Positions 14,459-33,125 of a stretch of DNA of 51,967 bases are shown here, piece by piece. This DNA comes from an uncultured Erysipelotrichaceae bacterium. GTDB taxonomy: Bacteria; Bacillota_I; Bacilli_A; Erysipelotrichales; Erysipelotrichaceae. Below the pieces are notes generated by a model. That model saw only the letters and a program-made list of their open reading frames with translations. It did not search any database and was not told the origin of the DNA. The DNA lies in contig CAMNFS010000008.1 in the NCBI GenBank assembly GCA_946537255.1, forward strand, positions 1 to 51,967, read 5' to 3'. Position 1 is the stretch's first letter, and each line of letters begins with the position of its first letter. Made by a program: the position numbers and the translations under genes.

Positions 14459-15820
14459 TCAGTCCTTTACACTGACCCATTCATCCGTTCCGGCAATCCA
14501 GGAATCCTCCCCGATCCGGTACCAGGTATAGCCATAGGCTGTTTTTTCTTCCATTGCCGTATAGGTATGCCCCTTTACCGCCTGACCCTTCAGGGAGGCG
14601 GAGATGCTTGGTCTGGAGCGGATATTCAGATGATCCACATTGACGGTCACCTGAAGTTCCTTCTGTGCATCCGATCTGGCGCGCACTTCTTCTGCGGTTT
14701 CATACTCCACCCATTCATCCGTTCCGGCAATCCAGCGGTTTCTGCCGATCCGATACCAGGTATAGGTACCGTCATTCTCCGTTTCAAACACCCGGTAGCG
14801 CTCGCCGTTTTCCGCATACCCTCTGGCAGTGCCGGTTGTGCGGGGAGCCGATCTCACTCTCAGTTTATCGACATGAACGCTTACCATACCGATCGGATCC
14901 TCCTCTTCTGCCAAAGGCTCAGAGAAAGCAGTATCCGCAAGTTCAGGTCCCGTCTCTTTGACAAGCGAGCTTTCATAGACCATCTGCGTGCTTCCTCCGC
15001 CATCCATGCGGATCGCATCGTGCACCTTCAGATCCGTAAGGAACGAAAGAACGGTCTCTTCGCCAAGCGTTCCATAGATCGTAATCAGAAGAAACTGCCG
15101 ATCCGCCTTCTGGGCAAGGATGGTAAGAGCTCTTCCATAGGTCCGGTAATTGATGTCTCCATACGCTCCGCCGGTGATATCCTGCTGCCTGCCATCCGCA
15201 AAATAGGTATAGGAACCGGATATTGCGTAATCCTCATTGATCCGATAACCACTCGACCAGTGCCAGAGATCATCCCCGTTCCACTGACCCCATGCCCAGC
15301 CATGATACCTGAGCTTCATCTGACCATCCGTGATATAAGCGGTCGCAAAGCCATTCCCATAGGCCGGAGTATTTTTGATCGGACCCCAGCAGGTCCATTC
15401 ATTGTTCCGCCGAACCGCTCCGACCGGCTGACCATAGTTGCCCTCCTCCATCGAGAAGTATCCGCCATTGATCCCTCCGGCATACAGATATCCCCTGTCC
15501 AGCGTCTCCATATCCGCCAGTTCATCCAGATACTGAGGCGTCTCGCAGTAGTCGATCTGCACATGCGTATGTTCACTTGGATTCACCCGCAGGATGTCGT
15601 AGTACACATCCTCCAGAATTCCCTCCTCATGGGTGATATCCTCTGCTTTTCCATCGGTATAGACATTGACTGCCGATACAACCTTGCGTCTCAGCGTGTC
15701 GATCCGTGTCTCTTCATCCCAGGCGTGGGTCACTTCCTCTGCCTGAACCGAAAGCACGGTGCCGCTGCAGAGAAAACAGGCCAGTATCAGGCCCAGAATT
15801 CTGTCAGACTGTTTTTTCAT
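14459..15820 (-). CDS. Secreted phosphodiester glycosidase-domain (NAGPA-type) protein with two SH3-like repeats
   Basis: A 453-residue secreted protein. The signal peptide ends around VQA-EE (residue 26). A central NAGPA-type domain (about 45-285) carries INGGYF (117-122), GRALTILAQKAD and the signature DGGGSTQM (273-280). The family includes the mammalian uncovering enzyme that cleaves GlcNAc-1-phosphodiesters. Two bacterial SH3-like repeats follow (about 312-372 and 391-450), each ending WYRIG...WIAGTDEWV, likely wall-binding. AGAGGTG precedes the ATG. It is paralogous to the next upstream gene. In this locus it may trim or turn over a phosphate-containing surface polymer; the substrate is inference. 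Confidence 0.85.
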   Translation of the reverse strand: MKKQSDRILGLILACFLCSGTVLSVQAEEVTHAWDEETRIDTLRRKVVSAVNVYTDGKAEDITHEEGILEDVYYDILRVNPSEHTHVQIDYCETPQYLDELADMETLDRGYLYAGGINGGYFSMEEGNYGQPVGAVRRNNEWTCWGPIKNTPAYGNGFATAYITDGQMKLRYHGWAWGQWNGDDLWHWSSGYRINEDYAISGSYTYFADGRQQDITGGAYGDINYRTYGRALTILAQKADRQFLLITIYGTLGEETVLSFLTDLKVHDAIRMDGGGSTQMVYESSLVKETGPELADTAFSEPLAEEEDPIGMVSVHVDKLRVRSAPRTTGTARGYAENGERYRVFETENDGTYTWYRIGRNRWIAGTDEWVEYETAEEVRARSDAQKELQVTVNVDHLNIRSRPSISASLKGQAVKGHTYTAMEEKTAYGYTWYRIGEDSWIAGTDEWVSVKD

Positions 15821-15881: not shown

Positions 15882-15904
15882 GACAGCCGGAACTTCCGGC
15901 TGTC
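15882..15904 (-). terminator. Strong inverted repeat at the end of the second NAGPA-type gene
   Basis: Eleven-base arms GACAGCCGGAA and TTCCGGCTGTC are separated by a single base and overlap the TGA stop. The following minus-strand sequence is only moderately T-rich (TGTTCGTTTCT). It may be a weak terminator or an mRNA 3'-end stabilising hairpin. Confidence 0.5.
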
Positions 15905-17447
15905 AGTAAACTTCTTCTTCCTGTCCTGTCGCGGCAATCTCTTCGCCAAGCACTGGCTCAGGCAGGATGGCTGTCTCTTCCTGAACAGGCTCCGGTTCCG
16001 TTTCCATTTCCGCCTCTTTCACGGATTCTGTTTCCTGAATCTCTCCGACGGCGGCAGTTGTGCCCTCAAGGGCTTCAACCCAGCCAGGCAGCGCCGGAAT
16101 CCAGCGCTTTTTGCCGATGCGGTACCAGGAATACACCGCATCCTTTGCCTCTTCATATACCGTATAAACACTGCCCTCATTCAGGGTTCCCACCATTGCG
16201 GATGAAGCATCCGGAGAAGTATGCACTTCGGTATTGCGGGCATTCACACGGATCTGAAAGGGATCCATATCCCGTTCCCGGGCTTCCTGAATCTCGTCGT
16301 TGTCAAAGAATTCGACATCCCCTTCCTTCGTTTCAATCCACCGCTTTTCGCCGATCCGGTACCAGGTGGATTCTTCTTCCTTCTTTTCCTCAAACACCTG
16401 ATAGCGCTCGCCGATGGTAGCCTCACCCTGTTCCTCATCGCCGGCTTTGGCTTCCTCATAAACCGGAATCCGGTCAGCCTGAACAATCAGATATCCAAGC
16501 GTTTCCTCGTCAGTTTCTTCCTCATTGGCCATGGGCATCTCGGTCCATTCCAGCTCCGGCGGCACATTTCTGACATATTCTGTCTCATACACCATCTGAG
16601 TGGAACCGCCGCCGTCAAAGCGGATTGCGTCATAGGCGCCGAGTTCGCCGAGAAAATAACGGATCCGGTCTTCGGCAACCGTGCCGTAGATCGTAATCAG
16701 AAGAAACTGCAGATCTGATTTCTGGGCGAGGATGGTCACTGCCCGTCCGAACGCCCGATAGTTGATTCCGCCGGAACTTCCGCCGGTGATGTCCTGCTGA
16801 ACGCCATTGGCATAATAAGTGAAGGAGCCTGATACACCGAAGGCACCGCCGTCGATCGTATATCCGGTCCACCACGCCCAGCCGGCATCGCAGCACCATC
16901 CGCCGCCGGACCAGCCGTGATATCTCAGTTTCAGATTGTCGCCGTCAATATAGGCAGTCGCAAAACCGCTGCCGTAGGCAGGCGTACACGGTTCCCCATT
17001 CCACCAGGCCCACTCATTGTACCGGCGGACCGCGCCGACCGGTTTGCCATAGTTTCCGCCGCCGCCGTTTTCAAAGTACCCGGCATTGATGGAACCGGCA
17101 AAGTGATATCCCTGTTCCAGCCGGTATCCGTCCACCATTGAATTGATATGGGCGGGAGTGGCGCTGTAATCCACCTGAACCAGTGTGTTTTCCGTCGGAT
17201 TGACGCGCAGAATATCGTAGGTCACGCCGTCAAGAACACCCTCTTCATGCGTGATGTCATCATTTTCGCCTTTGGTATAAACAGAAATCGCGGTACTGAC
17301 GGGACGTCTGAGATAATGAACCCGCTTGGTCTCATCCCAGGAGTTCTGTACCTCCTCGGCATGTACCGGCACGATCCCGTTCACTGTCATAATGGCCAGA
17401 AACAGAGCCGCCGCGATTCCTTTTTTTCTTCTTCTGGTATCTTTCAT
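15903..17447 (-). CDS. Secreted phosphodiester glycosidase-domain (NAGPA-type) protein with SH3-like repeats and acidic tail
   Basis: A 514-residue paralogue of the downstream protein. The signal peptide ends at about VHA-EE (residue 30). The NAGPA-type domain includes INAGYFENGGGGNYGKPVGA, GRAVTILAQKSDLQFLLITI and DGGGSTQMVYE. It has an aromatic, cysteine-containing loop, GWSGGGWCCDAGWAWW, that the paralogue lacks in that form. Two SH3-like repeats follow, ending STWYRIGEKRWI and YSWYRIGKKRWIPALPGWVE, then a tail of about 60 residues rich in Glu, Pro and Thr. A TATAAT lies upstream and a hairpin follows the stop. It probably acts outside the cell on a glycan phosphodiester. Duplication with tail gain suggests a divided role with the shorter copy. 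Confidence 0.85.
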   Translation of the reverse strand: MKDTRRRKKGIAAALFLAIMTVNGIVPVHAEEVQNSWDETKRVHYLRRPVSTAISVYTKGENDDITHEEGVLDGVTYDILRVNPTENTLVQVDYSATPAHINSMVDGYRLEQGYHFAGSINAGYFENGGGGNYGKPVGAVRRYNEWAWWNGEPCTPAYGSGFATAYIDGDNLKLRYHGWSGGGWCCDAGWAWWTGYTIDGGAFGVSGSFTYYANGVQQDITGGSSGGINYRAFGRAVTILAQKSDLQFLLITIYGTVAEDRIRYFLGELGAYDAIRFDGGGSTQMVYETEYVRNVPPELEWTEMPMANEEETDEETLGYLIVQADRIPVYEEAKAGDEEQGEATIGERYQVFEEKKEEESTWYRIGEKRWIETKEGDVEFFDNDEIQEARERDMDPFQIRVNARNTEVHTSPDASSAMVGTLNEGSVYTVYEEAKDAVYSWYRIGKKRWIPALPGWVEALEGTTAAVGEIQETESVKEAEMETEPEPVQEETAILPEPVLGEEIAATGQEEEVY

Positions 17448-17841: not shown

Positions 17842-17868
17842 AAAAAAGGCGGCGGAAGATCCGCTACC
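17842..17868 (-). terminator. Rho-independent terminator of the rmlA-to-GT10 operon
   Basis: Minus-strand GG-ta-GCGGA-TCT-TCCGC-cg-CC followed by TTTTTT. The hairpin includes the TAG stop of the family 10 glycosyltransferase gene. Confidence 0.75.
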
Positions 17869-18862
17869 TTGAACGTTTTTTAGAAAGCATCGTGCCGTTT
17901 GCGATGCGCCTGATCTGATTGGCTGCCCGATGGACACTGGTATGAATATGCTTTTCATAGAACGCATGGCGGAGAATCATCTCATCATGCGCCTTTGTAT
18001 ACATGGAATGAGGTCTTCGGAATGCCTTCTCATACGGCTGATCAATAATATGGATCAGAAACTTCTCAAACAGATCCGGGTCTGCATATTCAAGAACCGG
18101 CGGCTCATTGATCATCGCAAGATAGCGCTCCTCATCCTGATCGATCGCCCGCACTTCTTCAAGCACTTCCTCAAAGCTGTCATAGTCATGACAGGAAACA
18201 AACGCCTTCGGGTTGAAGTCCTCTGCCGCCGTGGGATCTCCGTAATAGATCGGAACTGCCCGTGAAGCAAAGGCATCGACAATCTTCTCTGTTACGTATC
18301 CTGGATAGCAGGCATTTTCACATGCAATGCAGAAGCGGTAGTTTCTGCCGAAAGCGATCTTGTCCTTGACCGCACCGCCCACATTGTTCCGATAGCGGCC
18401 GCCGCTTGCGACAGGCTGATAGGTACTGAGTGTTTCAAACAGTCGGGTCCGATCATCCTGGCCGAAGCAGTTGGACACAACGAAGGAACAGAACCCCTTC
18501 TTTGCCTTCAGCTCTTCCCTTGTAAACACAGGCCGATCCTTTAAGGAAAGATATTCCTTTTCATAGCCATGAAACAGATAGTATGGAAAGCGGATATACC
18601 GGTCGCCGAATTCCAGCCGGTCAAACCCTGCCGCGTAGTCGCATTCATTGAAATCCGGTGTGATGCATTCGCCGGTATAGAAGATGCGCACGCAGTCATA
18701 GTTCAGATGATCCGTTCCGAAAACCGAATAGATCAGATATTCCGGACGATCCTTTGTTACGATCACATCGTAGTGTTTCTTCAGCAGCGGCAGATAGTCA
18801 TTGTTCAGCGGGTCAAAGCCGCGGTGCTGATCCGCAAAGGCAACCCGGATCGTCCGCTTCAT
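17864..18862 (-). CDS. Glycosyltransferase family 10 (alpha-1,3/4-fucosyltransferase-like)
   Basis: A 332-residue enzyme with the GT10 C-terminal hallmark NYRFCIACENACYPGYVTEK (about 174-193), continuing IVDAFASRAVPIYYGDP (194-210). The N-terminal half has DHLNYDCVRIFYTGECITPDF, as in Helicobacter-type enzymes. Characterised members use GDP-L-fucose to fucosylate GlcNAc-containing acceptors. No GDP-fucose pathway (gmd, fcl, fkp) lies in the window. The operon instead makes dTDP-linked 6-deoxy sugars and a galactofuranose-type donor, so the real donor is uncertain. Its ATG overlaps the mutase stop by 4 bp, and it is the last gene before a terminator. Confidence 0.87.
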   Translation of the reverse strand: MKRTIRVAFADQHRGFDPLNNDYLPLLKKHYDVIVTKDRPEYLIYSVFGTDHLNYDCVRIFYTGECITPDFNECDYAAGFDRLEFGDRYIRFPYYLFHGYEKEYLSLKDRPVFTREELKAKKGFCSFVVSNCFGQDDRTRLFETLSTYQPVASGGRYRNNVGGAVKDKIAFGRNYRFCIACENACYPGYVTEKIVDAFASRAVPIYYGDPTAAEDFNPKAFVSCHDYDSFEEVLEEVRAIDQDEERYLAMINEPPVLEYADPDLFEKFLIHIIDQPYEKAFRRPHSMYTKAHDEMILRHAFYEKHIHTSVHRAANQIRRIANGTMLSKKRSR

Positions 18863-22963: not shown

Positions 22964-25378
22964 TTATTCGTTTACAGGATTGTCCGACTGTTCGCCATTC
23001 TGCTCTTCCGGGGTGCTTTCCGGCTCCTGAGGAGTTTCCGGTTCCGGATCATTGCCCGGCTCTGGATCCGCGGACGGTTCCGGATCGGTACTTGGCTCCG
23101 GTTCACTGGTCGGGGCTGGCTCCGGCGTTTCCGGTTCAGGAGATACTGTTGGTTCAGCAGTCGGATTCAGCGTCTGTTCTGCCCTTTCCTTTTCCTCCCT
23201 TGTCTCATAGCATCGATTGGTCAGATCGGACCAGACCCACTGATAGGCCTGGCAGGTTTCCGCATCATGAGCCTGAGACGGGCTGGTGAGTTTCGCGGCT
23301 GCCTCCTCGGCTTTGGTGCGGTCTTCCTCGGTCGCAAAGCACTGACCGAGTTTGTCAGACCAGAACCAGCTGAAGGTCTGGCAGGCAGTTGCCGTCTTTA
23401 CTTCCGAAGCACTCTGGGGAGCAGCACTCGGCGTTGGCGTAGCAGTGGCACCGTTCTGGGCAACCGTTACGGAAATGCTCGAGATGCCCTGGATGCTGGA
23501 GCCGGCCGGTACCGACTGCGACAGAATGGTTCCTTCTGCCGCTGCTGCGTCCGCCACATAGGTCACAGACAGAGAGATCCCCTGCGCATCGCAGAATGAC
23601 TGCAGACTTCCGAGCGGCTTACCGACATAGTTTCCGATCGTAGTCGGAACCGTGCTCGGGATGATTGCCTCGTTATAGGTTTCCGCGGAAATGGTCGGAA
23701 CATAGAAATCCCAGTTGACAGACCACTGCAGGGATTTGTCCTGCGTAATCGGAGTATTGAGATTGATATTGCGTTCGATCGCTTTCCGGGTATCCGCAAG
23801 GGATCCCTGCCAGAGCCGGTAGATGTAAAGCGACATCTGCAGTCCCTCATCCCAGAGTCCGCTGGAATAACCGGTTACCCGGCTGCCCTGCAGCTGGATG
23901 ACCTTTTCGACATGGTCCTGATCATAATAGCGGTTTGCCTTCTGCAGCGCATAGCTCATGAAGCCGGTCATCTGTGACAGCGAGAGATTGGTCTGAATAT
24001 TGTCTCCCGCGGCATCCATGACATCGAGCAGCGTATTGATGTCACGGGTCCGCATGATCTTTCTGAGAATGGCTTCAATTACTTCCTGCTGATGTTCCTG
24101 ACGGGCAAAGTCACCGGTTGAAAACAGATGCCGTTCGCGCGCGAAGGCAAGTGCCTGTTCTCCATTGAGCAATACATCCTTGCCGGCCGGAACCCAGACC
24201 GTATAGGCACCGCGCTCACTGTCGGAATTCTGACCCACGAACTCAATCGGGGAATCCACGACAATTCCGCCCAGAGCATCCACGACCTGTACGACGCCCT
24301 TGAAGTTGGTATCGACATAGTAGTCAATATCCACCCCGACAAGATTCTGTATCGTATTGATCAGACAGTCCCGGCTGACCGCGTGAGCCGCGTTCAGCTT
24401 GGAGGAATTGCCGCCATAGCAGCTGATCGGAACATAGGAGTCACGGGCAAGCGAAGACATCGTGACCTTCATGGAGATCGGATTGACCGAGCAGAGAATC
24501 ATCGTATCCGAAAGCCCGTCCGCGTTGCCGATCAGAAGAACCGTGAATGGTTCCTTGGTAAGATCCTTATCAGAACCGGAGGTATTTTCCACCGTAACCG
24601 TCTTTTCAAAATCCATGATGGACGCGGTATTGTTCAGAAACTCCTCCATTCCGGTTTCATTGGCAAAGAGATTTTTGTAATTGGTCGGCAGAACCGCGCA
24701 GTCGATCTCGCCATTGAACAGCGCGAGAATCACGGAGGAATAGTCCTGATACTCACTGAAGTTCACATTGACCTTCTCGCTTTCGATCTGCGCTTTTCCA
24801 AGCGCTGCCGTCTGGGTTCCGGTGGCCAGACCGACCGATCGGCCATCGAGCTGTTTGATCTCTGTATACCGCTGCGTTCCGGTATCGGAATAGACAACAA
24901 AACTGGTCGAAACGCTTTCCTTGGTCGTAGAGCTTGTCATCTTGTCAACGTTCCGGTTCACCCTGCCAAGGGCATAGGTGCCGTAAAGGCCGATGCCAAG
25001 CAGTCCAATCATCAGCACAATGCCGGTGATAAAGACCGATTTCGTGCGGGTACGGATTCCGTACATGAGAGCCATATTCATCATGATCAGAATGATGATG
25101 CACAGAATATTCACCGTCACGAAGGTCTTGCCGGAAAGATTGGCGAACCGGGTGGAATTGAACAGCGTGATGATGACCGCAAGATTGGCGATAACCGCAA
25201 GCACGGTCACCACGATATTGATATTCGTCATATCCCGGTGGAATCGGTTGGATGATCTTGAACTCTGCGCTCTTGCGGAATGGCTGGAAGCAGAGCGACT
25301 TTTCTCCGTAGGGTTCTGCGGTTTTTGAGCGGAGTTTTTTCTTGCCGGGGTCTGTTCCGGGGTTTTTCTTTCACTCAT
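22964..25378 (-). CDS. Multidomain LytR-CpsA-Psr (LCP) family protein with PASTA domain and Cys/Trp repeats
   Basis: LCP proteins transfer lipid-linked polymers such as teichoic acid or capsule to peptidoglycan. This 804-residue protein has a basic Ser-rich cytosolic tail (1-50) and three membrane helices (about 52-73, 85-108, 114-134). Next comes a region resembling a solute-binding-type domain (about 155-262: GLATGTQTAALG, FNGEIDCAVLP). The LCP domain (277-500) has LSDTMILCSVNP, LARDSYVPI, SSKLNAAHA and the arginine motif AFARERHLF...GDFARQEHQQ. A PASTA-like domain follows (578-642), then two Cys/Trp repeats (664-695, 707-738) and a Glu/Pro-rich tail (739-804). Start: ATGA overlap with the previous gene and GGGAGGGAC. 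Confidence 0.9.
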   Translation of the reverse strand: MSERKTPEQTPARKNSAQKPQNPTEKSRSASSHSARAQSSRSSNRFHRDMTNINIVVTVLAVIANLAVIITLFNSTRFANLSGKTFVTVNILCIIILIMMNMALMYGIRTRTKSVFITGIVLMIGLLGIGLYGTYALGRVNRNVDKMTSSTTKESVSTSFVVYSDTGTQRYTEIKQLDGRSVGLATGTQTAALGKAQIESEKVNVNFSEYQDYSSVILALFNGEIDCAVLPTNYKNLFANETGMEEFLNNTASIMDFEKTVTVENTSGSDKDLTKEPFTVLLIGNADGLSDTMILCSVNPISMKVTMSSLARDSYVPISCYGGNSSKLNAAHAVSRDCLINTIQNLVGVDIDYYVDTNFKGVVQVVDALGGIVVDSPIEFVGQNSDSERGAYTVWVPAGKDVLLNGEQALAFARERHLFSTGDFARQEHQQEVIEAILRKIMRTRDINTLLDVMDAAGDNIQTNLSLSQMTGFMSYALQKANRYYDQDHVEKVIQLQGSRVTGYSSGLWDEGLQMSLYIYRLWQGSLADTRKAIERNINLNTPITQDKSLQWSVNWDFYVPTISAETYNEAIIPSTVPTTIGNYVGKPLGSLQSFCDAQGISLSVTYVADAAAAEGTILSQSVPAGSSIQGISSISVTVAQNGATATPTPSAAPQSASEVKTATACQTFSWFWSDKLGQCFATEEDRTKAEEAAAKLTSPSQAHDAETCQAYQWVWSDLTNRCYETREEKERAEQTLNPTAEPTVSPEPETPEPAPTSEPEPSTDPEPSADPEPGNDPEPETPQEPESTPEEQNGEQSDNPVNE

Positions 25379-26202
25379 GACTGTCCCTCCCCGTCTGTTT
25401 TTTCATCAGAGCCGGCTGCACCGGTGCCGTTTTCGGCTTCCCAGGCTTCCACGCTGTCCATATCGTAGAACTCAACAATTTCAAACCGGCCGTCGTGATC
25501 CGCGACAAGAAACCGCATCCGGTGCGGGAATTCCGTAAGATTCACAGTCGCCTCACTGCCATAGGTCCACGATACCTGAACCTGGTAACAGGGATAGGTG
25601 ACCGGAGGATCCACACTCTGTACCGTAAAGTCATCGGTACGGAAGGTCGGAACTTCCGTGGTGATTTCCGCCACTTCAGGAAGATGCTCGCGGCCATACT
25701 GGGAAATGTAAAGATCCAGGTTGGAATACGGATACCACCGGTTCCACTCCTCGAATTTCGCATACTTTTCCGCATAGATATACTGCAGGCCGCCTACTTC
25801 ATAGTTGCCGTCCTTGTTGGTCCAGGTGAAATAATCGGTCACAAAGTTGTATACGACCGCTTCCGCCTTTTCTTCCGGTGTTCCGGAAGAAAGCGAATCC
25901 GTCAGCTTCTGGAAATACTCCTTGGAGATTTCCGTCGGATTGTTTCCGATTTCATACAGGGAATTCTTCATGGTCTTTCCGGTTTTGACGGAAAGGGTTT
26001 CCTCGTTTCCCTGATTCGCAACCTTGCTCATGCGGGCAGCGTTGACAGTATTGATGCCAAGGGCAAGAATCGCAGCAACTGATATGCCGATCAGAACATA
26101 ACTCAGGATCGATGTAACCTGACGGCTGCGTTTTTTCTGCGCATCCGCTTTTTTCTGACCGGGAACCGTTCTGCGAACCGTTTTTTTCCGATTCTCTGAC
26201 AT
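25375..26202 (-). CDS. Membrane-anchored extracytoplasmic protein of unknown function
   Basis: A 275-residue protein. It has a basic cytosolic N-terminus (KKTVRRTVPGQKKADAQKKR), one membrane helix (about 30-52) and an extracellular part with aromatic-rich segments such as YFTWTNKDGNYEVGGLQYIY and EEWNRWYPYSNLDLYISQYG. The end is an acidic tail. The C-terminal half looks like a compact alpha+beta fold, but I do not recognise a family. GGAGG six bases before the ATG is a good ribosome binding site. It overlaps the LCP gene by 4 bp and lies 21 bp after the glycosyltransferase gene, so it is probably a partner of one of them in polymer attachment. Confidence 0.75.
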   Translation of the reverse strand: MSENRKKTVRRTVPGQKKADAQKKRSRQVTSILSYVLIGISVAAILALGINTVNAARMSKVANQGNEETLSVKTGKTMKNSLYEIGNNPTEISKEYFQKLTDSLSSGTPEEKAEAVVYNFVTDYFTWTNKDGNYEVGGLQYIYAEKYAKFEEWNRWYPYSNLDLYISQYGREHLPEVAEITTEVPTFRTDDFTVQSVDPPVTYPCYQVQVSWTYGSEATVNLTEFPHRMRFLVADHDGRFEIVEFYDMDSVEAWEAENGTGAAGSDEKTDGEGQS

Positions 26203-27351: not shown

Positions 27352-27666
27352 TCAGCGGGCGCTGTCAATGAGTTCAGCAACCTGTGCCTCCGGACGGAAG
27401 CCGAGTCCCTGACTGGCGACGGTTCCGTTTTTGAGCACGAAGACCGCCGGAATCGAAGCGACATTGAATCTCGCCGCAAGATCCGGAAGCTCATCGCAGT
27501 CTACCTTGACGAACTTCACATCCGTCACCTTCTCGGAAAGCTTTTCTACAACCGGCCCCAGCATTTTGCAGGGACCGCACCAGTTTGCAAAAAAGTCTAC
27601 GAACACCAGTTCATTGCCGGCAACGATCTGATCAAATTCTTCTGCGCTCTTAATCTTCTGTACCAT
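27352..27666 (-). CDS. trxA: Thioredoxin
   Basis: A cytosolic disulfide reductase of 104 residues. The redox motif is WCGPCKM within VFVDFFANWCGPCKMLGP, followed by VKVDCDELPDLAARFNVASI and the cis-proline in SIPAVFVLKNG. The start at 27666 has GGAAGGAT upstream; seven further in-frame codons are unlikely. It has its own promoter-like element and terminator, so it is probably a single-gene unit lying between surface-glycan operons. Confidence 0.95.
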   Translation of the reverse strand: MVQKIKSAEEFDQIVAGNELVFVDFFANWCGPCKMLGPVVEKLSEKVTDVKFVKVDCDELPDLAARFNVASIPAVFVLKNGTVASQGLGFRPEAQVAELIDSAR

Positions 27667-27695
27667 GGTTTGTATCCTTCCTTTCATCGGTTCTG

Positions 27696-27740: not shown

Positions 27741-28553
27741 TCAGCCGACGGTGATGGAATAACCGGTGGTGAAGACTTCATGCGGATTCAGAATCAGGGT
27801 TCCCTCCCGTTTTTCAAACGGCACTTCCGTTTTTTCAAAGTCTGTGTGGGAATGCCATGGCTCGATGCATACAAACGGGGCATGCGGGCTCCAGAACGCG
27901 CACCATGGAAACCCGGGCGCCGTCACCTTCACAAATGTTTTTCCATTGGTAAGCGTGTAGGCGGAGCTGTTGGGATGCGTAAGAATCACGGTAGCGGCAA
28001 GCGCCTCTTTGTCCAGTGTGAGCTCCTGAATGGTTTCACCATGAAGCGTTTCCGGCTGATCAAAGACAATCCGGTAGTCTTCAAAGGATTCTCCCTTCTT
28101 CATCGGCACATTGAAAGCCGGATGATAACCGAAATTGAACGGCATGGCACGCTCATTGGCATTGGTGATTTCATTCTTCACATGCAGGGTATCTCCATCA
28201 ATGGAATAGGTATTTCTCAGAATAAAGTGAAACGGATACTGACGCAGTGTCTCCTCACTGTCCCTGAGTTCCATGACGATTTCACGCTCCGAATGGGAAA
28301 CACAGGTGAACTCGCTGTTTCTGGTAAATCCATGATTGCCGGTATGATACTCCTGTCCGTCAATGTGCAGCACTTTGTCCCAGGTGCTTCCAACCATCGG
28401 AAACAGGGTCGGATTGCGGCCGGCCCAGAACGCGGGATCCCCCTGCCAGAGGTATTCCACCTCATTGTCGTTTCGCTTCAGACTGTGCATTTCCGCCGCG
28501 TGCTCACTCACGGAAACACTCAGAATTTCATTTTTCATGGTAAAGACTGCCAT
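27741..28553 (-). CDS. Aldose 1-epimerase family protein (LacX-like)
   Basis: A 270-residue galactose-mutarotase-type protein expected to interconvert alpha and beta anomers of an aldose or a related sugar. It shows EYLWQGDPAFWAGRNPTLFP, the conserved HGFTRNSEF histidine segment, FNFGYHPAFNVP and a C-terminal APFVCIEPWHS containing the catalytic-type Glu. The frame is open far upstream, antisense to the next gene, but the ATG at 28553 has GGGAG five bases before it and fits the family N-terminus. LacX-like members are often of unknown specificity. Divergent promoters lie between it and the plus-strand operon. Confidence 0.85.
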   Translation of the reverse strand: MAVFTMKNEILSVSVSEHAAEMHSLKRNDNEVEYLWQGDPAFWAGRNPTLFPMVGSTWDKVLHIDGQEYHTGNHGFTRNSEFTCVSHSEREIVMELRDSEETLRQYPFHFILRNTYSIDGDTLHVKNEITNANERAMPFNFGYHPAFNVPMKKGESFEDYRIVFDQPETLHGETIQELTLDKEALAATVILTHPNSSAYTLTNGKTFVKVTAPGFPWCAFWSPHAPFVCIEPWHSHTDFEKTEVPFEKREGTLILNPHEVFTTGYSITVG

Positions 28554-28589: not shown

Positions 28590-28618
28590 ATAGTATCCGA
28601 ATACTCCGGGGTTGTCAT
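28590..28618 (-). promoter_or_regulatory. Promoter of the aldose 1-epimerase gene
   Basis: Minus-strand ATGACA (28618-28613, 5 of 6), 17-base spacer, TACTAT (28595-28590), about 36 bases before the start. Its -35 touches the extended -10 of the opposing promoter. Confidence 0.4.
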
Positions 28619-28626
28619 GATATAAT
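28618..28626 (+). promoter_or_regulatory. Extended -10 promoter of the third NAGPA-type operon
   Basis: TGATATAAT is an extended -10 (TGnTATAAT) with no clear -35, consistent with extended -10 promoters. It lies about 33 bases before the start at 28659. Confidence 0.5.
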
Positions 28627-28658: not shown

Positions 28659-29690
28659 ATGACGGATGCAAGGAAAAGAAAGAAACGGAAAAAAAGGCGG
28701 CTGAAAGCCAGAATCCGGCGAACCTTCCGGCAGACTGTGATGATGGTTGCTGTATGTCTCATCACCTTTGCCCTTTTTGCGTATATTGCCCTTCTGATTA
28801 TTCTGAAGGGGCCAAGTCCCACCTTCTCCAACATGGTCGTTTCCACCATGTGGGAAACCCGGCGCGGAAAGGCGATTGTTCGGACGATGTTCACGGAAGA
28901 TGAAATAGAGGCAATCCTTTCCAAGAACGCGGTTGACAACACCACCACGGTTGCCAATGTGACGGAGAATGACTATGGCGAATTCAATATTCCCGAGTCC
29001 GAGAAAAACCGGATTGATGTAGTGGATGTGTCCGGCGGTACCTTCAAGGGCAAGCTGATGATCATCCGTGACCCGTCCCGTGTGCATCTCGGGGTCAATT
29101 CCCTGATGCCCGGCGGCAATACCGGTTATTCCGTACAGGATTATGTGGAAGAACTCGGAGGTCTTGCGGGAATCAACGGCGGCGGTTTTGATGACCCCAA
29201 CGGCAAGGGCGACGGCTCCATTCCGCAGGGAATCGTCATCCGGGACTCCAAGATTGTTTTCGGATCGCCAAGCGATTATGAATGCCTGATCGGCTTCAAT
29301 ACCGCGCATCATCTGATCGTCGGTGACATGACCGGCGAGAATGCCCTGGAGTGGGGTATTACGGACGCCGTCACCTTCGGCCCGGTGCTTGTCTATGATG
29401 GCCATGCCTGCGCGATTACCGGCAACGGCGGCGGTCTGAACCCCCGCACCATCATCGGTCAGCGGGCAGACGGGGCGGTGCTGATGCTGGTGATTGACGG
29501 AAGACAGACCACCTCACTTGGCGCGTCCTACGAGGACTGCATCGAAATCATGCTGGAAAACAACGCGATTGTCGCGGCAAATCTCGACGGAGGCTCCTCT
29601 TCCGTCATGTACTATAACGGCAAAATCATCAACAACGTAGTTTCAATGAACGGAGAACGACTGGTACCTACTGCATGGATCGTGAAGTAA
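28659..29690 (+). CDS. Membrane-anchored phosphodiester glycosidase-domain (NAGPA-type) protein
   Basis: A 343-residue protein. It has a strongly basic cytosolic N-terminus (RKRKKRKKRRLKARIRR), one membrane helix (about 27-49) and an extracellular NAGPA-type domain. The domain shows GLAGINGGGFDDPNGKG (168-184), PRTIIGQRADGAVLMLVIDG and NLDGGSSSVMYYNG (308-321). It is more distant from the two secreted paralogues at 14459-17447 and lacks their SH3-like repeats, so it would act close to the membrane. The ribosome binding site is poor. Its last 16 bases overlap the next gene, which suggests coupled translation. Opposite in orientation to the surrounding glycan genes. Confidence 0.85.
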   Translation: MTDARKRKKRKKRRLKARIRRTFRQTVMMVAVCLITFALFAYIALLIILKGPSPTFSNMVVSTMWETRRGKAIVRTMFTEDEIEAILSKNAVDNTTTVANVTENDYGEFNIPESEKNRIDVVDVSGGTFKGKLMIIRDPSRVHLGVNSLMPGGNTGYSVQDYVEELGGLAGINGGGFDDPNGKGDGSIPQGIVIRDSKIVFGSPSDYECLIGFNTAHHLIVGDMTGENALEWGITDAVTFGPVLVYDGHACAITGNGGGLNPRTIIGQRADGAVLMLVIDGRQTTSLGASYEDCIEIMLENNAIVAANLDGGSSSVMYYNGKIINNVVSMNGERLVPTAWIVK

Positions 29691-30859
29691 AAGTAAAAGT
29701 TAAAAACAAACGTGCATACAGCGAACAGCTGCGGAGCGGAGAACGCTATTACATGAATCTGCTTCGGGTTTTTCTGTCGCTTGTCATCGTTTTCTCGATC
29801 GGCTGCGTCTATCTCTATTTCTGGCTGTATTACTATGAACGCCATTCCATCAACGGTGCCCTCACCCAGTATGTCAAGGATGTCACTGACCGCAAATGGG
29901 ACAAGGTCTACCGCGAGGACCGCAGATATTTCACGGAGCTGAACACCAAGGAAGCGGTAACCGATTTTCTGTTCTATGTCTATGGAGATAAGAAACCCGG
30001 CGGAATGACCTTCTCCTTTGCCAACAAGGATGAAACCTATCAGTACTATGACTGTTACTACCGGCAGTCCTACATCGCAACCCTGCAGATTGTCAAACCG
30101 GAAAACAGCCGGGTCTGGAAGGTCAGAACCCTGATCGGCTCGAACAATTATGAGGTGGAAACCCTGAACAGCAGTACGTTCCGGATCAATGACATTCCAA
30201 TCACCCCGGACTACAAGCATGAAGACAATCTCGTGCCCGGAGCCTATGCAGGCTATGAGCTCGACGACAAGCTCCCCCGCGTCAGCAACTACTTCATCGG
30301 AAACATCGTCGGCACCCCGGCCATTGTCCCGGAAAATGAAAACAACATTGTCATCCGGGATTACACCGCTTCCCGCTTCATGATCGGTCAGAAGCCCGAT
30401 ACCAGCCAGCGGAGCGAATTCGCCGCGGCGATCAACGATACCGCGATGGCCTACTGCAAATACATTACGGAAGATGGAACGCTGTATGATCTCAAGCAGC
30501 ATCTGCTTCCCGGAACCGTATTCTATGACGCGATTTCCTCCTTCAACAACCAGTGGTTCACAACCCATGAATCCATTGACTTCCAGAACATCGATATCTT
30601 CGATATTCTCCCGGTCGGCGACAATGCCTTCATCGGCTCCATCCGGTTCGATTATGTCGTCACCGCGACCAATGTCTCACAGACCTATTCCAACCATTAT
30701 CAGATGTTCTTCATCCGGGATAACAACAACGACTGGAAATGCATCAACATCTATACCGTATCCACGGATGACAGCAGCCCTTCCCTTCCAAACGTCAATA
30801 TTGAAGAACCGGAAGAGGAGGCTCCTGCCGAGGAATCCCCGCAGCCCCAATCCACCTGA
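29675..30859 (+). CDS. Membrane-anchored extracytoplasmic protein of unknown function
   Basis: A 394-residue protein. It has a Lys-rich cytosolic N-terminus (VKVKVKNKRAYSEQ), one membrane helix (about 28-52: LLRVFLSLVIVFSIGCVYLY) and a large extracellular region. That region has two possible NTF2-like modules: an early one around SINGALTQYVKDVTDRKWD and a later one ending YQMFFIRDNNNDWKCINIYT. The end is Glu/Pro-rich. I do not recognise a named family. It overlaps the NAGPA-type gene by 16 bp and is followed by a terminator, so the two form one unit. A paired function in polymer editing at the membrane is inference. Confidence 0.75.
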   Translation: MDREVKVKVKNKRAYSEQLRSGERYYMNLLRVFLSLVIVFSIGCVYLYFWLYYYERHSINGALTQYVKDVTDRKWDKVYREDRRYFTELNTKEAVTDFLFYVYGDKKPGGMTFSFANKDETYQYYDCYYRQSYIATLQIVKPENSRVWKVRTLIGSNNYEVETLNSSTFRINDIPITPDYKHEDNLVPGAYAGYELDDKLPRVSNYFIGNIVGTPAIVPENENNIVIRDYTASRFMIGQKPDTSQRSEFAAAINDTAMAYCKYITEDGTLYDLKQHLLPGTVFYDAISSFNNQWFTTHESIDFQNIDIFDILPVGDNAFIGSIRFDYVVTATNVSQTYSNHYQMFFIRDNNNDWKCINIYTVSTDDSSPSLPNVNIEEPEEEAPAEESPQPQST

Positions 30860-30861
30860 TC

Positions 30862-30883
30862 AAAGAGCTTCGGCTCTTTTTTT
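30862..30883 (+). terminator. Rho-independent terminator of the plus-strand NAGPA operon
   Basis: AAAGAGC-TTCG-GCTCTTT followed by T residues; a stable UUCG tetraloop hairpin. Confidence 0.9.
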
Positions 30884-31021: not shown

Positions 31022-31597
31022 CTAGGAACGTCTTCCCACGCCCCAGAAGCTGCCGTCATTGCGGAGGATGACTTCACACGCCTCCTCTCCATACTGTTCC
31101 TTGCAGAGAGCCTTGCCTTCTTCCCCCTCAAAGACGGTTTCATACTGAGAAATCACATCTACCGGTACGGAAGAACATGGAAGCGAAGGATCCACGGCCA
31201 CCGAAACATCACACCCGGACGGCGTCGGTTCCGGTTCCGGGACATTCTCCTGGTCGCTTTCAAGCGCACCTGATTCCATGACATGAATCGTAATGATGAC
31301 CTCTGACTCATTATTGGAAAGGTCCGTACAGACAATCGAAGGATAGTATTCGCCTGGCTTTGTGTAATCCACATACCCGCGGAGCCGGGTCGGAAGAAGC
31401 CCATCCACGTCATCATAGCCGCCGATATTGGAAAAATCGATCGGATGATTGACTTCCGTGTAGAACTCGTACTGTTTCATGTTGATATAGGGCGGCATGG
31501 TGTCAGGTGTATTGACAGGAAGAATCGAACTGTCCTGATTTATGACAGCACATCCTGCAAGAAACAGAACCGCACCAAAAGAGAGAAGTTTACGCAT
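31022..31597 (-). CDS. Lipoprotein with an Ig-like (DUF5011-type) domain
   Basis: A 191-residue lipoprotein. The signal MRKLLSFGAVLFLAGC has a clean lipobox with Cys16. PDTMPPYINMKQYEFYTEVNHPIDFSN, then YDDVDG and VDYTKPGEYYPSIVCTDLSNNES, match the pattern of bacterial Ig-like DUF5011 domains, which often occur in cell-surface proteins. The C-terminal part contains four cysteines, possibly two disulfides, and a Glu/Pro linker. It overlaps the flippase gene by 8 bp and ends the operon. Role unknown; it could bind the exported polymer. Confidence 0.75.
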   Translation of the reverse strand: MRKLLSFGAVLFLAGCAVINQDSSILPVNTPDTMPPYINMKQYEFYTEVNHPIDFSNIGGYDDVDGLLPTRLRGYVDYTKPGEYYPSIVCTDLSNNESEVIITIHVMESGALESDQENVPEPEPTPSGCDVSVAVDPSLPCSSVPVDVISQYETVFEGEEGKALCKEQYGEEACEVILRNDGSFWGVGRRS

Positions 31598-33125
31598 CCT
31601 TGTTCCTCCTTCTCTTCAGAATTCCAAGCACTCTCGAAAACAGATTCCGGAAGCTGCGGTAGAACATCCAGTAGATGATCGTAGTGACAACGGCAGTCAG
31701 TCCCGCCAGGATCAGAATCGAGAGAATCAGAGAAAACCTTCCCTGCATGGCATATGAGGCAAGAAACGTGTTCCAGAACAGATATCCGGCCCCGCCGATG
31801 CAGAAGGCAATCAACAGCCTGCTTACAACCATGAAGTAGTAATCCTTTGCCGGACGATGAAAGACCATGCGATAGACCAGTACCGGATTGTAGGAAAAAT
31901 CCACGGTCCAATAGGCACATGTCGTCGCAAGCACCACCCCGAGCAGACCGAGTTTCTGAACCAGAAGAACCGAAAGCAGAATCTTCACCCCGGCAAGGAT
32001 CCACGCATTGTTCTTGGCGTTGACATACAGGCCGTTGGCGTCTCTTGCGATAATTACGGGCTGGCGCATTGTCATATAGAAGATATTCAGTCCGAAAAAG
32101 AAACAGATCGACATGCTAGCGGTATAGAGCGGATCATTCATCCAGACCGGCACAAACTGAGGCATGACATTGACGATCGTACAGGCCACAATCGTAGATA
32201 CATAGGTCGCGAAATTGAAGAATTCCGTAAAAACGCCATAGCTGTCCGCGTTTCGATCATTGAACAGATTTCCGAAAGAGTTCATCGGGGACTGAACCAT
32301 GGTCTGGGTGATCTTCCCGATGTTGTCAGTAAGATAGCTGTAGGTCCCGTAGACAGAAGACATGACATAGCCCATGAAGCCGCTGACAACGATGTTGTCG
32401 GTCTGGGTGGTCGCAAGCTCGGAGAGCCGCTGCACCATCGCGTATCCGGCCTTGTTCTGAAAGGAATGATCATCCGGGTTACCGGGCTTTTCCTTCAGCC
32501 ATGGATACTCCTTCAGGGCGATCATTCTCGAGAGCGTATTGGCGCACAGAATATTGAGCGCTTCGATCATCAGAATCACCACAAAGGGCATCTTCATCAG
32601 AATGGCAGCCACCATGGCAGCCATCCGCACGATCGAGATAATCTGAATCCAGAAATTGATGCGGTATTCCTTCTGATCCGCCATGATCACAAAATTCGGT
32701 CCGAACAGAAAATAGGAAATTCCATAGGGCATGGCCAGCAGCAGGAAGGTCCCCACCGTTTCCCAATAGGAGAACGGGCTTTCCGCAAGATTCGGGAAAA
32801 CCAGCGCTACCAGCAGCGAAGCGGCCAGACACACTGCTCCGGTAATGCGGAAAATACGGACCGCTCCATGATAGATATTCTTCACCTCTTCCCTGTTTCC
32901 CTCCGCAAGCGGTTTGTAGAGCAGCTGCCGGAAGGCAAGAGAATAGGCAAGTTCGCAGATATTCAGAAAGGTGATCACCTGGGCAATGGTCAGCTGCAGT
33001 CCGTTGACCGCGCTTCCGTAAAGCGCCACAAAAAGACGGACTTTGATAAATCCGATCAGCGGAAGAATCAGAGCCGAAACGGTGCTCACAAGAAAGTTGT
33101 AAAAACTGTGTTTTGTTCGGGACAT
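31590..33125 (-). CDS. Wzx-type polysaccharide flippase (MOP superfamily)
   Basis: A 511-residue protein with about 12-14 membrane helices. It begins MSRTKHSFYNFLVSTVSALI and has LFVALYGSAVNGLQLTIAQV, LSELATTQTDNIVVSGFMG and a basic C-terminus. It resembles oligosaccharide flippases of Gram-positive capsule loci and differs clearly from the one at 12915-14366, so two separate lipid-linked oligosaccharides may be exported. AGGAAAC precedes the ATG. It begins five bases after a family 2 glycosyltransferase gene and overlaps the lipoprotein gene. Confidence 0.88.
   Translation of the reverse strand: MSRTKHSFYNFLVSTVSALILPLIGFIKVRLFVALYGSAVNGLQLTIAQVITFLNICELAYSLAFRQLLYKPLAEGNREEVKNIYHGAVRIFRITGAVCLAASLLVALVFPNLAESPFSYWETVGTFLLLAMPYGISYFLFGPNFVIMADQKEYRINFWIQIISIVRMAAMVAAILMKMPFVVILMIEALNILCANTLSRMIALKEYPWLKEKPGNPDDHSFQNKAGYAMVQRLSELATTQTDNIVVSGFMGYVMSSVYGTYSYLTDNIGKITQTMVQSPMNSFGNLFNDRNADSYGVFTEFFNFATYVSTIVACTIVNVMPQFVPVWMNDPLYTASMSICFFFGLNIFYMTMRQPVIIARDANGLYVNAKNNAWILAGVKILLSVLLVQKLGLLGVVLATTCAYWTVDFSYNPVLVYRMVFHRPAKDYYFMVVSRLLIAFCIGGAGYLFWNTFLASYAMQGRFSLILSILILAGLTAVVTTIIYWMFYRSFRNLFSRVLGILKRRRNKDA

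Follow-up and report, generated by a model that had tools for sequence, protein, structure and literature searches.

Two overlapping genes, referred to here as A and B, lie on the plus strand of a stretch of 51,967 nucleotides from an uncultured Erysipelotrichaceae bacterium of the gut (contig CAMNFS010000008.1; this whole stretch is called the window below). Gene A encodes a protein of the NAGPA type, and gene B encodes an anchored protein that an original prediction, made from the sequence alone, had been unable to assign. That prediction described two open reading frames sharing 16 bp and running opposite to their neighbours, and both are present with this overlap, flanked on each side by genes on the minus strand. 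Gene calls in this work were made with a simple codon model, which missed the window copy of A. The features of the pair are as follows.

28618..28626, plus strand: extended -10 promoter-like element TGATATAAT, 32 nt 5' of the A start
28659..29690, plus strand: gene A, predicted membrane-anchored NAGPA-type phosphodiester glycosidase, 343 residues
28728..28808, plus strand: membrane helix of A, about residues 24-50, preceded by a basic tail (model helix 17-50; hydrophobicity)
29166..29684, plus strand: NAGPA domain of A, residues 170-342 (Pfam match; hidden Markov model (HMM) alignment)
29675..29690, plus strand: 16-bp overlap of A and B, likely to couple their translation
29675..30859, plus strand: gene B, anchored protein of 394 residues whose structure model shows NTF2-like domains
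29744..29824, plus strand: membrane helix of B, about residues 24-50 (model helix 12-57; hydrophobicity)
29849..30094, plus strand: domain 1 of B, residues 59-140, probably NTF2-like of the MecA_N type (model; PF05223 matches in relatives; PBP2a-like profile matches)
30119..30391, plus strand: beta-rich linker of B, residues 149-239 (model)
30401..30757, plus strand: domain 2 of B, residues 243-361, NTF2-like (model; structure alignment)
30862..30883, plus strand: intrinsic-terminator-like hairpin with a UUCG loop and a T-run, read in the sequence

Across genomes the two genes are rarely found apart. Searches of 100 relatives located 74 places matching B. At 73 of them an A precedes B on the same strand, and the remaining one is a contig-edge piece; the gap between the matched stretches ranges from -13 to 665 nt. 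In profile searches over 315 genomes of the order, A was counted only at 300 bits or more, and six B matches in family f2 and one in genome G218 were excluded before the tally. Of the 119 B places that were left, 109 are preceded by A within 700 nt, and for 104 the distance is at most 41 nt. Contig ends account for eight of the ten others, three of which (in G037, G055 and G123) have a remnant of A, and the last two are in G260 and G261. Seen from the side of A, four of the 113 places with at least 300 bits have no B at profile level: one (G055, contig C203) is at a contig edge, in G293 and G297 a gene for a B-like protein (42 and 37 bits, respectively) follows A after a single base, and the fourth is in G028. 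At 18 further loci among the matches listed (19 NAGPA genes, 144-230 bits with the A profile) the next gene never matches B, so that pairing seems limited to one NAGPA subfamily. The claim that A and B are conserved neighbours, for which rare adjacency in other genomes had been named as the contrary observation, therefore held. These data indicate that A and B almost certainly form a real functional pair, and their near-constant adjacency makes it probable that they work together on the cell wall.

The pair also exists in several copies, of which the window genome has three (the window copy and those named C33 and C84). For comparisons of spacing and phylogeny we took A and B genes on the same strand within 120 nt of each other, which gave 78 distinct pairs and, once four partial ones had been dropped, 74 full-length pairs. 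Measured from the longest-frame starts, the gap between the two genes varies from -88 to +12 nt and is exactly -16 in 23 of the 74. Trees of A and of B have 32 of 71 splits in common, and common clades of 18, 15 and 7 pairs contain the window copy, C33 and C84, with FastTree support in the A and B trees of 0.84 and 0.75, 0.29 and 1.0, and 0.76 and 0.95, respectively. Pairwise distances of A and B are correlated in a mirror-tree comparison (0.88 for all pairs, 0/1000 permutations; 0.80 and 0.86 within two groups), which is weak evidence of contact because any co-inherited genes would show a high correlation.

The match of A to PF09992 covers residues 170-342 (E 9.8e-36; 123.9 bits against a cut-off of 25), and its structure model (mean predicted local distance difference test score (pLDDT) 79.5) aligns with NAGPA 6pku over 231 residues at a Z score of 24.6 and a root-mean-square deviation (rmsd) of 2.7. 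A thus has the fold of NAGPA, the mannose-6-phosphate uncovering enzyme (UCE; PF09992; 6pku, 6pki and 6pkg), and resembles it in the HMM-aligned stretches around N-G-x-x-F, RT..G, DG and NLDGG..S. It differs from the vertebrate enzyme in being bacterial, in its N-terminal membrane anchor and in the coupling of its gene to that of an NTF2-like partner, and the two are only about 20% identical. The positions of A aligned with vertebrate NAGPA are N173, G175, F177, R263, T264, G267, D280, G281, N308, L309, D310, G311, G312 and S314, and the aligned residues are conserved in 68-74 of the 74 A proteins, except at position 174, which is alanine in 43 and glycine in 31. D179 is invariant among the 74, yet it falls one place off the vertebrate Asp in the HMM alignment. 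These similarities make it moderately likely that A is an active phosphodiester glycosidase acting on an envelope glycan; judged from its family, it would hydrolyse alpha-sugar-1-phosphate diesters of envelope glycans.

Membrane tethering, part of the original prediction, is borne out by a strong hydrophobic stretch of 19 residues near the N terminus in 71 of the 74 A and 72 of the 74 B proteins, and A is, as described, the third NAGPA-type protein of the window and free of SH3-like repeats in Pfam. The other two NAGPA genes of the window (14459-15820 and 15903-17447) share with A the NAGPA domain and the gene cluster but differ in carrying SH3_3 domains and in scoring much lower with the NAGPA model. 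In all, the genome (2.44 Mb in 129 contigs) has eight NAGPA places, seven of them above the Pfam cut-off, and three places matching the B profile, none of which adjoins the SH3_3-bearing NAGPA genes. NAGPA domains are also described within large surface proteins (PMC11488536 and PMC12419801). A lipobox was flagged in four A proteins, and two of these, judged real by eye (L095:6555-7706, MTACS; L098:7373-8248, LIACS), apparently use it as a substitute for the transmembrane anchor that A proteins usually have. In one genome (G254, L214:1502-4492), NAGPA-type genes for proteins of 543 and 432 residues stand in tandem with no B-like partner.

No family in Pfam or NCBIfam matched B at E ≤ 1; a structure model (pLDDT 85.1; predicted template modelling score 0.71) now gives it a long membrane helix and two NTF2-like domains. 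In order, these are the helix, a helical-beta domain 1, a beta linker and a domain 2 with an NTF2-like fold. The top Foldseek match of the model is TcpC (3ub1, E 1.5e-4). In VIA-align comparisons, residues 240-365 matched VirB8 (5jbs_C; Z 12.7, rmsd 2.2, 105 residues aligned) and the CaMKII hub (9eoy_B; Z 12.6, rmsd 2.9, 114 aligned). An alignment with 3ub1_B covers both domains (Z 11.3, 186 residues) at an rmsd of 13.3, so the whole of B has no rigid match to it. Three PDB sequence relatives were regarded as chance matches (E 0.064-0.67).

Domain 1 is probably MecA_N-like, to judge from the model and from remote sequence matches. Window B itself does not match PF05223 (MecA_N), 10 of 30 B members match it weakly (best E 0.0085), and one B homologue of genus g65 reaches 24.3 bits against a cut-off of 22. 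Within family f2 the B profile also finds matches in six genomes, with E values from 7.9e-9 to 4.5e-5. One of these matches (G072), the only one scanned with Pfam, has a PBP2a-like architecture with MecA_N; the five others resemble it in frame length, and their matches are limited to the first 154 profile positions. B and PBP2a-like proteins are alike in having an NTF2-like domain after a membrane anchor. B is unlike these class B PBPs in lacking a PBP dimer or transpeptidase domain, and an assignment of B as a class B PBP was ruled out on this ground: neither PF00905 nor PF03717 was found in B or among the Pfam matches of the 30 B members. Over the 315 order genomes the B profile matched 58, comprising 51 of family f1 with true B, the six of f2 and G218, whose alignment covers only the membrane helix and which was rejected as a B. 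In a phylum sample of 392 genomes it matched nine, namely seven of f1 and two of the six f2 genomes. One B, about 602 residues long (G039, L109:9349-11157), has extra sequence inserted in its N-terminal part and lacks a strongly hydrophobic segment close to the start called for it.

TcaA of Staphylococcus aureus likewise has NTF2-like content. According to PMC10328498, TcaA has one membrane helix and a large outer part, in which it resembles B, and an intracellular zinc finger, in which it differs, and it affects wall teichoic acid retention. TcaA_5th (PF22819) had no match in the window genome or in 81 phylum genomes, with Bacillus subtilis matching as a control, and TcaA families are not among the Pfam matches of the 30 B members at E ≤ 0.1.

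The surroundings of the pair were compared at type-1 loci, defined as those with an A matching window A at E ≤ 1e-110. Besides the window, 21 such loci were fetched, and 20 of them retain at least one gene of the glycan neighbourhood that surrounds the window copy (L146 retains none). An epimerase, a NagB-like protein and thioredoxin are the conserved genes on the A side, the NagB-like gene being present in relatives and not in the window; lipoprotein-like, flippase-like and GT2-like genes are conserved on the B side. The names lipoprotein, NagB, flippase and GT2 were assigned by eye. In the window the conserved neighbours are the following.

27352-27687: thioredoxin gene, A side
27741..28550, minus strand: aldose 1-epimerase-like gene, A side
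31022..31597, minus strand: lipoprotein-like gene, B side (by eye; no Pfam match over cut-off)
31590..33125, minus strand: polytopic flippase-like gene (by eye; no Pfam match at E ≤ 1)

The arrangement of the two genes is consistent with their being transcribed as one unit. The predicted extended -10 promoter is supported by the presence of TGATATAAT and by the occurrence of TGNTATAAT close to the A start in all 14 type-1 relatives examined, against a background of about 0.009 per 190 nt (window and L070-L109). In 13 of the 14 it lies upstream of the called start; in G013 it sits 21 nt within A, probably because the start was called too far upstream. A promoter scan of the window stayed at shuffle level (6 against 4.1 ± 1.9), as did a terminator scan (5 against 4.5 ± 2.2). 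Of the predicted UUCG terminator, the hairpin (AAAGAGC-TTCG-GCTCTTT) and its T-run are present directly 3' of B. It is missing from the sites reported by the terminator scan, our guess being that the T-run rule of the scan fails once A-T pairs are counted as stem, and no UUCG hairpin was seen 3' of B in the 14 relatives inspected.

Together, these observations lead us to propose that A and B constitute a two-gene envelope module. A, anchored through a single membrane helix and exposing its NAGPA domain on the outer side, would cleave alpha-sugar-1-phosphate diesters on envelope glycans. B, with a helix of its own and two NTF2-like domains, the first of them probably akin to the domain that precedes the catalytic domain of PBP2a-type transpeptidases, would most likely serve to position A itself, the glycan or newly forming wall, and would thereby give A its location and specificity. 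We regard this explanation as a whole as evenly balanced between right and wrong, and for direct contact between A and B the chances are likewise about equal. Our searches of the open-access literature listed no report of such a pair. A faithfully kept pair with up to three copies offers a concrete two-gene target, and a probable MecA_N-type domain outside PBPs, beside a putative glycan-cutting enzyme, may help explain the role of such domains.

Which bond A would cut can be considered by analogy. How LCP enzymes attach wall glycans is well documented, and these enzymes form alpha-D-GlcNAc-(1->P) bonds to peptidoglycan MurNAc (PMC7831098); UCE removes GlcNAc from GlcNAc-phosphate-mannose (PMC12024695). 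By analogy, A could cut an LCP-type or similar wall-glycan bond. For the copy in the window, the most parsimonious substrate would be an LCP-made bond of the alpha-GlcNAc-1-phosphate-MurNAc type, in which case A-B would, speculatively, trim or release glycan attached by an LCP enzyme such as that encoded at 22964-25378, 3.3 kb away. We consider this substrate rather unlikely. A still bolder version, which we think improbable, is that A-B is a wall de-ligation machine of Gram-positive bacteria that was duplicated as a unit and whose copies edit different wall glycans: the glycan-peptidoglycan bond made by LCP enzymes would be cut from the sugar side, the phosphate would stay on peptidoglycan, and the tandem NTF2-like subunit, part of it the MecA_N domain also present in PBP2a-type transpeptidases, would steer. 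Our searches of the open-access literature listed neither an enzyme reversing LCP attachment from the sugar side nor any NAGPA protein that has a constant partner. PMC12786226 deals with the teichoic genes of a related species.

Several observations weigh against the envelope module as we have drawn it, and some of them concern the substrate. Other copies of A-B adjoin housekeeping genes and not glycan loci: a uridine phosphorylase-like gene (PNP_UDP_1) lies near the pair in eleven other loci, and different housekeeping genes do so elsewhere. An LCP match is present in 23 of 30 B carriers versus 26 of 30 other genomes within the genus (hand count), so that LCP presence does not track A-B. The seven carriers without a match are all less than 90% complete or more than 5% contaminated, and the match is found in 69 of 70 good-quality relatives overall. 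It is therefore a serious possibility, if one that falls somewhat short of even, that A cleaves a different envelope phosphodiester, such as a repeat-unit or side-branch sugar-1-phosphate bond or a lipid-linked precursor. The housekeeping neighbours and the frequency of LCP in genomes free of A-B fail to single out the LCP bond, and UCE hydrolyses UDP-GlcNAc as well (PMC12024695). The absence of a PF03808 (TagA/WecG-type) match from the window genome points the same way, though some carriers of A-B have one (over the cut-off in G010, G018, G023 and G037). As a conventional teichoic-linkage marker PF03808 was set aside, showing no clear tie to A-B, with carriers among the 15 of 100 genomes matched.

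Other observations of this kind concern the partnership itself. In G260 and G261, which belong to one genus, B (detected by profile, not by tblastn) stands without A, and neither genome has a NAGPA match anywhere. Thioredoxin, NagB-like and epimerase genes are retained beside B, and with the slot otherwise intact it appears that A alone is missing from it. In two genomes, G028 and G012 (where A scores 196 bits), the gene after A is anchored and of B size, but it is not demonstrably related to B: omitting the N-terminal part lowers the hhalign probability against B from 77% to 2.7% in G028 and from 87% to 31% in G012. For twelve of the 74 pairs the A tree and the B tree disagree on which side of the type-1 split the pair belongs. 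In one of the twelve, that of G009 (L094:366-2496), a type-1 A, 59% identical to window A, is joined in a type-1 neighbourhood to a type-2-like B with 24% identity, which suggests that partners may be exchanged between copies. The genes in question are these.

L151:6599-7594 (G261) and L152:7119-8114 (G260): lone B genes in the type-1 slot
L090:3177-4256 and L091:8083-9192: anchored B-size genes directly 3' of an A, with no recognisable kinship to B outside the N-terminal part

The membrane-bound editing complex suggested by the original prediction stays conjectural, the lone B genes and the mixed pair of G009 being points against it. Both also fit an explanation in which A and B are co-expressed in one envelope programme without contact, B having a job of its own that would be useful even without A; its NTF2-like domains might, for instance, bind glycan or peptidoglycan. 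We nonetheless judge this somewhat unlikely, given that the near-perfect pairing of three copies in several genera, together with the frozen 16-bp overlap, suggests that matched amounts of the two proteins are needed.

Less likely again is that A is a transferase or a binding protein on a NAGPA fold and not a hydrolase. Its bacterial PDB relatives 3ohg, 5h3k and 6ozd do carry titles such as unknown function, hypothetical or putative, but the residues shared with vertebrate NAGPA, kept in 68-74 of the 74 A proteins at the counted positions other than 174, speak against this reading. Finally, TcpC is membrane-anchored, and TcpC (3ub1) and VirB8-like proteins share NTF2-like domains with B, TcpC being its best Foldseek match, yet B as a conjugation-type subunit, with the pair as mobile-element cargo, is highly improbable: a tblastn search with B against 72,556 plasmid and 50,697 phage records gave no match at E ≤ 1e-3, TcpC and VirB8 are absent from the 11 Pfam families matched by the 30 B members at E ≤ 0.1, the loci examined have glycan or housekeeping neighbours with no conjugation context seen, the type-1 copy holds a fixed chromosomal slot and 3ub1_B spans both domains only at the high rmsd given above.

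The original prediction had also grouped A and B with a protein encoded at 25375-26202, on the basis of a shared plan of basic tail, one helix and outer domain. The plan itself stands for A and B and, by eye, for this third protein, but homology of the latter to B does not (hhalign probability 0.4%), and its grouping with the pair is unsupported. The lipoprotein-like neighbour at 31022-31597 is likewise not homologous to B (hhalign probability 0.3%). The glycan genes of the window include those for an LCP protein, UDP-galactopyranose mutase, nucleotide-sugar enzymes and a fucosyltransferase-like protein. The LCP protein (22964-25378) has 804 residues, a PASTA domain and, by eye, Cys- and Trp-rich C-terminal repeats. 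The fucosyltransferase-like gene (17864-18862), of the alpha-1,3 type, lies in the glycan cluster and matches FucT_N (E 6.6e-34) and Glyco_transf_10.

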